Positions 38,297-41,759 of a DNA stretch of 49,179 bases are shown in pieces. Origin of the DNA: Candidatus Brocadia sapporoensis (GTDB lineage: Bacteria > Planctomycetota > Brocadiia > Brocadiales > Brocadiaceae); assembly GCF_001753675.2 (NCBI RefSeq), contig NZ_MJUW02000098.1, forward strand, positions 1 through 49,179, read 5' to 3'. The notes under the pieces are model-generated. The model did no database searches. It was not told the DNA's origin and saw only the letters and a program-made list of their open reading frames with translations. The position numbers and the translations under genes are program-made. Position 1 is the first letter of the stretch. Every line of letters starts with the position of its first letter.

Positions 38297-39854
38297 TTAC
38301 TTTTCCTTTGTCTTAATAATAACATATCGTGAAAACTCACCCCGTTTTATCAGCATCAGGACACCTTTTTCTTTGTCCGCCTCATTCAATGCCTTTTTAA
38401 ATTCTGTAACATTATTAATTTTTTTTTCGGTTTACTTCCTTGATGAAATCGCCTTCTCGTATCTCTGACATAGCTGCCGGACTGCCAGGTTGAACCTCGG
38501 TAACGATTACTCCGCTCTCTTCTTCGATACCGAGACTTTTGGCAAGTTCTTTCGTGAGGTTTTGTACGGTCATTCCAAGGTCTTTTCCGGATGGAGCTGC
38601 ACCAGGCCCGGCGGCGAATAAATCGGCTGGCTGTTCACCAATCTTTACAGTTAAATCCTTTTCTTTTCCATCCCTCAGAACTTTCACCTTTATTTTTTTG
38701 TTAATTTCCGTTTGTGCAACCGTGTTGCGGAGATGATTTACGTCCCGAATAGATTTTCCATCGTAATCAACTACAATGTCGCCTCGTTCAAAGCCTGCTT
38801 CTTTTGCAGGAGAATTGTCTTGAACATCACTTACCAGGACACCTTCTGTAACCGTAACATTAAATGATTTTGCCAAAGCGGGATCGATGTCTTGGATGAC
38901 AACTCCAAGCCACCCACGGGTAACCTTACCCTTTTCTACAAGATCTTTCATAATAATTTTTACCATATTGATGGGGATAGCGAATCCGATTCCTTGATAA
39001 CCACCACTCCTGGTAAATATAGCGGTGTTAATACCAATGATTTCGCCTTTGATATTAACAAGCGGTCCACCGCTGTTGCCCGGGTTGATGGCTGCGTCTG
39101 TCTGAATCATGTCTTCATACGCTGCAACGCCCACATTTGCCCTCCCCGTGGCGCTAATAACACCGATGGAAACAGTCTGCGACAGACCAAAAGGATTTCC
39201 TATGGCAATGGCCCATTGCCCGGCACGAATAGTGTCAGAATCGCCCAATTTTGCGGAAGGCAGGTTCTTTCCATCTATTTTTACAACGGCAATGTCTGTT
39301 TGAGGGTCAGTGCCGACTACTTTTCCATCAAATTCCCGTTTATCTCCTAAATTAATCTTCAACTCATCGGCATCTTCCACGACGTGATTATTTGTTATAA
39401 TGTAACCCTTTTCGCTATCAATAATTATTCCGGAACCAAGTCCTTGTATTTTGTAATCACCTTCAGGAAATCGAGGTTTGAAAAATCTATCATAAAAGTC
39501 GTCACCAAAAAAATCCTTGAATTGTTGGAATTGATCATCTTCCTGTTCTTGTTTTGGACCTGGTCTTGGTTGTGAATGAAATCTGTCATTAGGCATTTGT
39601 CTTTGTTTTTGTTTGCTGTGTTTAAACGTCTTTACAGAAGTAATGGAAACAACGGCAGGTTTAATCTGGTTAACCACATTTTCAAATACATGTTCAAAGT
39701 GGAGGGCGGTACTTAGTTCTTCTGCGCTGGTTTCACTTACTTGTTTATTCGCTGCATAGCTTTTTGTGTTAAGAAAGGAACACATAGTTACTCCAACACA
39801 GAGGCTAAAAATGAAAAAAAGACGAAGATAAAATCTTTTTGAACTGTGGGTCAT
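38297..39854 (-). CDS. degP: DegP/HtrA periplasmic serine protease, frameshifted near the C-terminus
   Basis: A periplasmic protease and chaperone. It has a signal peptide (about residues 1-34), a trypsin-like domain with catalytic His (NNHVVED), Asp (TDIAVVKI) and Ser (NPGNSGGPL), and PDZ1. PDZ2 follows but is cut: the uninterrupted frame stops at 38415 after NRKKN (479 residues). Removing one A from the A9 tract (T9 on +, 38419-38427) continues PDZ2 (NRKKINNVTEFKKAL ... GVLMLIKRGEFSRYVII) to a TAA at 38297, giving 518 residues. AAAGGAG precedes the ATG, and a strong promoter lies upstream. Confidence 0.9.
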
Positions 39855-39932: not shown

Positions 39933-40167
39933 ATCAAAAGTTGTGTGAGATTTCCATAAAGCTTGCATTCATCCTTGCGCATTGATAAAATAAAAGAGTT
40001 CAATCAGGTACATTTGTGATCCATTGCGGCCAAAATAGTCCTTTCTTTGATTCACGATTTATGGGGACGATGCAAGGGGCGCATACGTTTGCGTTGGTAT
40101 GTATTTTTTTATAAAAACAGGAATCTAAATGTATTTTGTTCCAAGAAATCTCGCAAAAAGGGGAATT

Positions 40168-41616
40168 ATGAATGTGAAAAAGATGTATTGGACGGTTTTT
40201 GTTGTAATGCTGTGGATTTCGTTTTTTTATATGCAGGAAAAGGTTTATTCTTCAGATGCGTATTTTGCATCCCGGGAGATTAAAAAACAAATTTTAAATG
40301 CTATTGAAGGGTGTCGTGATTCTATAGATATTGCAGTTTCTGATATTACTTCCTATGATTTTCTCCATGCCCTTGTTAAGGCACATGAGCGTGGGGTAAA
40401 GATCAGGCTTGTTATTAGCACAAAACACCTATTCGAGAAAGGGTCTCTGCCTGGTACTGACAAGGATGAGAAATTTGCAATAAAGACCGTGTTTCAAAAA
40501 GGAAGAATGCACCATAATTTTGCTATTTTTGATTCTCAATTACTGACTTTGGGGTCATATCCATGGAGGAAGAATATGGGTAATTATAATCGCTACGATA
40601 TGATTTTTACCGAAGAAACAAAATTAGTTGTTAAGTATCAAAGGGAATTTGACCAGTTATTTCAAGAGGGAAGAACCACAAGCAGAAAAGAAAATCTCGT
40701 TATTGAAGAAAAAAGCCAGGGAAAATCTGTGTGTCTAAGTAAATCAGAAATTGCTCCAAAAGAGTCGGATGCGGGAAATCAGATTGTAGCGTCAAACTAT
40801 GGGATTATTATAAAGGAGACCTCCCGTGGATTTATTGACATGAGTTTTGAAGACTTTGATAAGATCTTCGGAATAGCAAGTGAGTTATCTGATGAGCAGA
40901 AAGAGAGTTTATGGAGTCAGTGTATGGGGAAAAGGGTTAAGTGGAATGGAAGGGTGGCTTATATTGGATGGGGATTCATAACGAGCTGGATGATGAGTAT
41001 AAAATACGGGGATACCAGTGTTGAGGTAAAGCTAAACTCAGCCCATAAGGATCATTTTTCTCTGGTGAAATTTGGCAATACTGTGACTTATACCGGAAAG
41101 CTTGATTCGCGGGTAACAAAAGTGTTTCCGTATAAACTTGAAGATGGTGACGTGCTTGAAGTTGAGAATACCCTTCCTCCGCCGGTAGACAGGAGTAAAT
41201 TGGTTGAGGATCCTTATGTCATGCCAGTTTCGCAAGGGCCAAAAAAAGTATTCCTGATAGAGTCGTTTGAAGATCTGGACAATATCTTTGGCAATGGGAG
41301 CGGGATGACGGAAACGCAAAAGGAAATCGCATGGGAACGATACAAGGGGAAATATGTCAGTTGGATGGGGAAGATTATGTATAAAAACATGGTTGCTACT
41401 GGTTTATGTATGGGAATGATGCAAAAGGAAAAAAGGGATGTCGAGGTAAAGTTCGGATTGGCAAAGAAGGATAAAGCATTAAAGTTTCAAGATGGTGAAA
41501 CAATCCTTTATAGTGGAAAATTGGTGGGAAGATGCGGAGATAAGACTCCGTTTATTTTAGAAGACGGGGACATTATATCGATAAAAGAATCGGGTTTAGG
41601 ATCAGGCGGTCTGTGA
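40168..41616 (+). CDS. Secreted degenerate phospholipase D-like protein with two tandem repeat domains
   Basis: A 482-residue protein with a signal peptide (about 1-28). A single PLD-like nuclease domain spans about 29-170 (AIEGCRDSIDIAVSDITS; HERGVKIRLVIS; LTLGSYPWRKN). The HxKx4D catalytic motif reads His115-His-Asn117-x4-Asp122, so the Lys is Asn (40516-40518). Two copies of a ~107-residue domain follow, at 225-331 and 365-471. They share SFED(F/L)D(K/N)IFG, QKExxW, GKxVxWxGxxxY, VEVKxxxA, YxGKL and LEDGD. The repeats look OB-fold-like (resembling tRNA_anti-like), an inference. AAGGGGA precedes the ATG by 5 bases. Function unknown. Confidence 0.75.
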   Translation: MNVKKMYWTVFVVMLWISFFYMQEKVYSSDAYFASREIKKQILNAIEGCRDSIDIAVSDITSYDFLHALVKAHERGVKIRLVISTKHLFEKGSLPGTDKDEKFAIKTVFQKGRMHHNFAIFDSQLLTLGSYPWRKNMGNYNRYDMIFTEETKLVVKYQREFDQLFQEGRTTSRKENLVIEEKSQGKSVCLSKSEIAPKESDAGNQIVASNYGIIIKETSRGFIDMSFEDFDKIFGIASELSDEQKESLWSQCMGKRVKWNGRVAYIGWGFITSWMMSIKYGDTSVEVKLNSAHKDHFSLVKFGNTVTYTGKLDSRVTKVFPYKLEDGDVLEVENTLPPPVDRSKLVEDPYVMPVSQGPKKVFLIESFEDLDNIFGNGSGMTETQKEIAWERYKGKYVSWMGKIMYKNMVATGLCMGMMQKEKRDVEVKFGLAKKDKALKFQDGETILYSGKLVGRCGDKTPFILEDGDIISIKESGLGSGGL

Positions 41617-41621
41617 TGTCG

Positions 41622-41644
41622 GGCGAGATTTCATATTTCTCGCC
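41622..41644. other. Hairpin between convergent genes
   Basis: GGCGAGA (41622-41628) and TCTCGCC (41638-41644) form a 7-base perfect stem with a 9-base loop, 5 bases after the PLD-like gene and before the convergent tilS end. There is no T-tract, so termination is only possible. Confidence 0.35.
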
Positions 41645-41759
41645 TGTAGCGAAATAGAGTTGCCAGAGTAAAAAAAAGACAATTTTGAATGTGTCCCGAA
41701 TTTGAGAAGCTTGTAGACGAATAGAAATTTCCATGAATAACTTTTGGAAACTACAAATT

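Follow-up and report, generated by a model that had tools for sequence, protein, structure and literature searches.

A probable PLD pseudoenzyme fused to tandem tRNA_anti-like OB domains in the anammox order

Phosphodiesterases of the PLD superfamily are recognized by an HxKx4D motif, and the single-motif PLDs mitochondrial cardiolipin hydrolase (PLD6), NucT and Nuc all retain its His-x-Lys. TPR adaptors and proteases can also occur as pairs of the NlpI-Prc type, in which an exported TPR protein is encoded beside an envelope protease gene. A PLD fold put to scaffold use is found in the FAM83 proteins, whose SACK1 (DUF1669) domain has a single degenerate HKD motif with the Asp retained; no PLD activity is reported to have been detected in FAM83, and the motif Asp is needed for binding the partner kinase (PMC6008594). 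These proteins are described as vertebrate, and they bind CK1.

The locus described here lies in a 49,179-nt contig of Candidatus Brocadia sapporoensis (NZ_MJUW02000098.1, positions 1 to 49,179), which we refer to as the window. It encodes a PLD domain followed by two OB domains (OB1 and OB2), with the following features:

40168..41616, + strand: coding sequence of the putatively exported PLD-OB-OB protein (482 aa plus stop), from the open reading frame, the start being backed by a 30-ortholog alignment
40168..40251, + strand: residues 1-28, a probable Sec signal peptide with KK, a hydrophobic stretch as its core and cleavage near VYS/SD, recognized by eye in the sequence and in the alignment of orthologs
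40249..40683, + strand: single PLD domain, residues 28-172 (PLDc_2, E 9.6e-17; mitochondrial cardiolipin hydrolase, E 8.6e-13)
40510..40533, + strand: degenerate HKD motif HHNFAIFD (H115, N117 replacing Lys, D122), from the sequence and from conservation across orthologs and OB-linked PLD domains
40807..41175, + strand: OB1, probable divergent tRNA_anti-like OB domain, residues 214-336, from repeat alignment and profile comparison
41227..41595, + strand: OB2, probable divergent tRNA_anti-like OB domain, residues 354-476, from repeat alignment, profile comparison and predicted fold
38415..39854, - strand: HtrA/Do-type trypsin-PDZ protease, a divergent neighbour kept in the family, from Pfam and synteny
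41617..41759, no strand: site where other family members have a TPR gene, which is absent here, from synteny and a TPR search of the window

A second in-frame ATG lies at 40129, 39 bases upstream, and 40168 is the better start because the 30-ortholog alignment begins at the 40168 Met (most rows have M, and L014, L034 and L027 have V or L). The N-terminus suggests that the protein is exported. The original prediction was of a secreted PLD-fold protein with two tandem homologous domains; it is borne out by the open reading frame, the PLDc_2 match and the 37% identity of the repeats, its secretion part being a reading of the N-terminus. Against three Brocadia orthologs, PLD, OB1 and OB2 are all under purifying selection (dN 0.11-0.17, dS 0.60-0.88), and the linker is relaxed (amino-acid identity 0.39-0.51). 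Since dN is well below dS in all three domains, the gene is real and not decaying. It is present in one copy in the 2.93 Mb genome. A search of the named genome collection gave three full-length matches, all from Candidatus Brocadia, and the window protein groups among them in a tree. No Pfam or NCBIfam model describes the PLD-OB-OB layout as such, in keeping with the earlier impression that the combination is new. An AlphaFold model of the whole protein, built from four Brocadia rows, has a pLDDT of 34.5, and an Rfam scan of the window returned no match.

The PLD domain is recognized by PLDc_2 (PF13091) over residues 42-164 with 61.5 bits (cut-off 27), and PLD6, NucT and Nuc, which have the same domain and the same single-motif layout, are its best PDB sequence matches. 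The window protein differs from these in the two C-terminal OB domains that it adds, and in its active site. Where they have His-x-Lys, it has HHNFAIFD, just as had been read earlier (His115-x-Asn117-x4-Asp122), and Pro and Tyr occupy the positions of the GSxN Asn and the downstream Glu, respectively. Across the 30 PLD-OB-OB orthologs, Asn117 is present in 29 (Ser in one), His115 in 18, and Asp122 in all 30. We extended the count to all fetched loci, using open reading frames of at least 100 aa between stops and a domain E <1e-3, with identical or contained domains counted once. This gave 88 distinct PLD domains, 85 of which are linked to at least one OB domain. Lys occurs in none of the 85, being replaced by Asn (41), Asp (24), Thr (10), Ser (5), Ala (2), Glu (2) or Gly (1), and the view that the protein is unlikely to be a standard phosphodiesterase is thereby strengthened. 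The Asp is found in 85/85, the His in 32/85, the GSxN Asn in 41/85 and the Glu in 26/85. For the PLD-OB-OB proteins, which form one clade in the tree (support 100/99, 31 rows), the numbers for His, GSxN Asn and Glu are 19, 3 and 4 out of 31.

Three PLD domains have no OB domain: L005, L053 (cut by the contig end, with Ser for Lys) and L105. The last is the stand-alone PLD of the window genome, and it provides an internal contrast in that it retains His, Lys, Asp, Asn and Glu. L005 (413-1051) is a stand-alone PLD in an alphaproteobacterial MAG, and reads MHHNFAIFD, with Asn for Lys and with His, Asp, Asn and Glu retained; its Asn is not independent evidence, because it was found via a query peptide containing the motif. 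Some PLD-OB proteins of family f2 (e.g., L046 and L140) retain His, Asp, Asn and Glu and have Ser in place of Lys; as they lack Lys only, decay seems to have begun with this residue. Read from present-day residues, there appears to be a decay series in which Lys went first, then the other active-site residues, and then the entire domain. We infer that the PLD domain has lost its catalytic activity, and the residue pattern makes it very likely that the PLD domain of the PLD-OB-OB protein is a pseudoenzyme. A second PLD-OB paralog of the window's family (L042-L044), which most relatives have and the window genome does not, has VQDFI in the motif region instead of HxK; it lies next to a gene for an NAD(P)H-hydrate dehydratase, and L042 also has a small neighbouring gene that is PII-like by eye.

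The likeness to FAM83 extends to sequence profiles. The A4 PLD profile finds FAM83B (E 2.7e-14) and FAM83A (E 1.8e-8), and the SACK1 profile, to which the window protein scores below the cut-off (17.4 bits against 21.4), matches the f2 PLD-OB member L092 above it (39.2 bits, E 7.9e-10). The Asp, as the only motif residue that is always retained, parallels the partner-binding Asp of FAM83. The two families nevertheless differ in how the motif has degenerated, for FAM83 mainly loses His and retains Lys, whereas the anammox family loses Lys in every member. In addition, the anammox protein is bacterial, has an N-terminus that suggests export, and is joined to OB domains; CK1 binding would not be expected of such a protein.

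The two repeats (OB1 and OB2) align over 117 positions with 37% identity (E 2e-22). Single-sequence searches of Pfam and NCBIfam gave nothing significant for the repeats, and no match to PF12869 (tRNA_anti-like) for the whole protein or for either repeat. PF12869 does match 17 members of a 40-copy repeat alignment at E values up to 1 (best E 2.6e-7), and the three-OB protein of family f4 exceeds its cut-off (46.9 bits against 23.5, E 2.8e-12). A profile search against OB-fold and tRNA_anti-like families, which had been proposed as a check, came out positive: hhalign of the repeat profile against five PF12869 domains gave 96.2% and E 2.3e-9, and an eight-copy Brocadia alignment gave 87.2% and E 3.8e-6, compared with 0.5% for the control of repeat profile against PLD profile. 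The repeats differ from PF12869 in that they add a conserved N-terminal helix pair (FG...LT..QK..W), and are fused to a PLD domain or arranged in tandem. A medium-confidence model of OB2 (eight rows, pLDDT 62.3, pTM 0.56) has two helices followed by six strands. OB folds lead its VIA fold matches, with Z values of at most 4.2, and 3f1z, which we take to be a member of PF12869, is second by Z (Z 4.1, 88 aligned, rmsd 4.0). Foldseek with the same model was weak (best E 8.2e-3), the repeat profile had only chance-level matches in the PDB (the best being an antibody chain, E 0.067), and no solved relative was found for a single tRNA_anti-like domain (L091). Taken at the level of sequence and profile, the repeats are in all probability divergent tRNA_anti-like OB domains. 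The description of them as homologous domains of unknown function thus holds for their homology, but not for the word unknown, as they belong to a known fold family, for which we found no settled function.

We reject a recent duplication of the two repeats, since the OB1 and OB2 domains of nine orthologs form separate clades, from which it follows that the repeats are old. OB1 groups with PLD-OB proteins of family f5 in the tree (support 98/93). Another planctomycete protein, L159 (1303-2748, 482 codons), is exported-looking and has three tandem tRNA_anti-like-type domains by eye, one of which is confirmed by profile.

The repeat profile matches 42 of 392 planctomycete genomes, with strong matches in 36 from the window's order and weak ones (E 1.8e-8 to 4.4e-4) in six others. 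The six comprise five zinc-ribbon proteins with a C-terminal OB (four were scanned against Pfam, and the fifth, L090, was grouped with them because it resembles L089) and a Sel1-repeat protein that has a PF12869 domain. The zinc-ribbon proteins (L086-L090) have a pair of zinc ribbons at the N-terminus and an OB related to the repeats described here at the C-terminus, as well as a hydrophobic stretch. In a class-wide search, the OB domain family was found in 60 of the 62 genomes of the anammox order, and in none of the 13 sister-class genomes outside it, among which the PLD profile has one weak match (E 2.2e-4). The order genomes without a repeat match are G047 and G034, and the latter has a PLD cut at a contig end. 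As a proxy for anammox we used HZS_alpha (PF18582), which matches 40 of the 62 order genomes, in families f1, f2, f4 and f5, with reading frames mostly of 809-845 aa. The proxy is not specific, for it also matches two of the 13 sister-class genomes (11 and 16 copies, mostly longer reading frames), and so it supports, without proving, that all families of the order are anammox bacteria. No account of this protein family in anammox bacteria was found in the open-access literature. The component folds are known; what is new is the PLD-OB fusion, with its universal loss of Lys, its confinement to this order in the genomes searched, and its linkage to a TPR gene.

That TPR gene lies downstream on the same strand in all 30 of the other loci of the window's family (L006-L034 and L104), at a median distance of 72 bases (range 30 to 373). 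It has about 610 codons and its own export-type N-terminus, and is split into two frames in L003 and L012. In the window, a TPR search gave no match at 41617-41759 (best E 1.2 anywhere in the window), and the best TPR match elsewhere in the genome is 44% over 154 residues. Because there is none at the site and only a partial match elsewhere, Candidatus Brocadia sapporoensis seems to have lost the gene, which is therefore dispensable there. The three-OB protein of family f4, which lacks a PLD, has a homologous TPR protein encoded downstream in 6/6 fetched loci; as this family drops the PLD and retains OB and TPR, the module does not depend on the PLD. In 4/6 of these loci, the three-OB gene also has a divergent TPR-transglutaminase gene upstream (e.g., L037 3353-5062, exported-looking, Transglut_core2). 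In family f2, PLD-OB(1) is followed by the TPR gene in 5/6 loci, and the sixth (L165) has a 1.6 kb flank with a different TPR-like reading frame; L046 has TilS downstream, as in f1. This TPR was not adjacent in twelve other paralog-group loci (L041-L045, L047-L052 and L054), where L050 has only a 25% TPR match, with a membrane protein of 975 aa, and the match in L049 is 24% over 177 residues. The gene arrangement makes it reasonably probable that the PLD-OB protein works with the TPR protein. In the available part of a predicted anammoxosome sub-proteome, TPR proteins appear in one table, with no mention there of phospholipase or OB-fold (PMC2881027).

On the other side, the HtrA/Do gene is divergent from the PLD-OB-OB gene in 29 of 31 loci (27/29 in the main set, L104, and the window). 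The two exceptions, L016 and L023, have only 142 and 266 bases of upstream flank, and all 29 loci with enough flank have the gene. Most long-flank loci of the window's family have the order NifU, NifS, HtrA/Do (reverse), PLD-OB-OB, TPR, TilS (reverse), and NifU, NifS, TilS and MetRS-like genes are likewise syntenic in many of these loci. HtrA/Do was not adjacent to OB proteins in 20 loci from paralogs and other families (L035-L054), and the window genome has three further Trypsin_2 proteins. The divergent HtrA/Do suggests a role in protein quality control outside the cytoplasm. An exported-looking TPR protein beside a protease gene recalls NlpI-Prc, with the differences that a third gene here encodes the PLD-OB protein and that the complex is proposed from gene adjacency. 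In a transcriptome paper, HtrA proteases come up only in general terms (PMC12053348).

Our best explanation, held tentatively and at somewhat short of an even chance, is that the protein is a non-catalytic binding scaffold within an exported complex of OB and TPR proteins. Its PLD fold, which probably dimerizes in the manner of single-motif PLDs, would hold partners together with the OB domains; the co-directional TPR protein would be the usual partner in the complex; and in the window's family the complex would probably serve extracytoplasmic protein handling with the divergently encoded HtrA/Do. A scaffold is likelier than an enzyme because the family spans the examined anammox order and usually adjoins a TPR protein, and the parts argue for binding rather than catalysis because catalytic residues are lost from the PLD, and in f4 the whole domain, without OB and TPR being parted. 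Against this, conserved neighbours can reflect slow rearrangement, the HtrA/Do linkage is limited to a single family, and the window species does without the TPR gene.

Binding might instead be directed at nucleic acids, in which case the OB domains and the dead PLD groove of an exported protein would hold DNA or RNA uncut (extracellular DNA of biofilm granules, for example). Among the closest PLD relatives by sequence are two nucleases, NucT and Nuc; the fold matches of the OB model are mostly nucleic-acid binders (RPA/CST, AspRS/AsnRS), 3f1z is titled a putative nucleic-acid-binding lipoprotein, and PLD and OB2 are mildly basic (pI 8.9 and 8.5). However, a Z of about 4 shows a shared fold only, OB folds also bind proteins and sugars, and no nucleic-acid gene is linked except the housekeeping TilS and tRNA-synthetase genes. 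OB1, with a pI of 5.7 (also the median of the 30 orthologs), is not basic, so polynucleotide binding by this domain is not favoured, and we regard the nucleic-acid reading as rather unlikely. We also doubt, and more strongly, that the dead PLD senses phospholipid (perhaps ladderane) head groups while the OB domains bind an envelope partner. Although the export-type N-terminus would suit such a role, and mitochondrial cardiolipin hydrolase is the best relative of solved structure (E 8.6e-13 alone, 5.9e-26 by profile), no lipid enzyme is linked, and f4 manages with OB and TPR and no PLD.

It is very improbable that the PLD remains active as a phosphodiesterase with Lys replaced by Asn (or Asp, Thr or Ser): the invariant Asp and the retention of His, Asp, Asn and Glu in members such as L046 would allow it, but the sparse His, GSxN Asn and Glu of the PLD-OB-OB group, and the Pro and Tyr of the window protein at the last two positions, speak against it. 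A heme or cytochrome c maturation factor, combining a CcmE-like OB fold with a CcmH-like TPR partner, is the most far-fetched of the readings. CcmE is among the fold matches (Z 3.2) and the TPR partner matches TPR_CcmH_CycH (E 1e-32); yet cross-matches between TPR families are common, with 49 families matched by one protein, and the invariant and near-invariant columns of the 40-copy OB alignment contain no His or Cys.

Returning to the scaffold reading, we suggest a broader and more speculative extension, which is possible though on balance doubtful: the OB family and the TPR protein may form a dedicated, lineage-defining exported module of anammox bacteria that acts as an adaptor in the handling of envelope or organelle proteins, either in the periplasm or in the lumen of the anammoxosome. 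The pseudo-PLD would have been recruited at the base of this module already without Lys, and would later have decayed in one family and vanished in another while the OB domains multiplied. To our knowledge, few proteins outside nitrogen metabolism mark anammox bacteria, and little is understood, in terms of proteins, of their compartmented cell plan. A family that is order-wide (60/62 genomes), exported-looking and TPR-adjacent in three families is a concrete candidate for anammox cell biology, and an apparent bacterial pseudo-PLD family with a visible decay series would offer a natural experiment in the conversion of a PLD fold into a scaffold.
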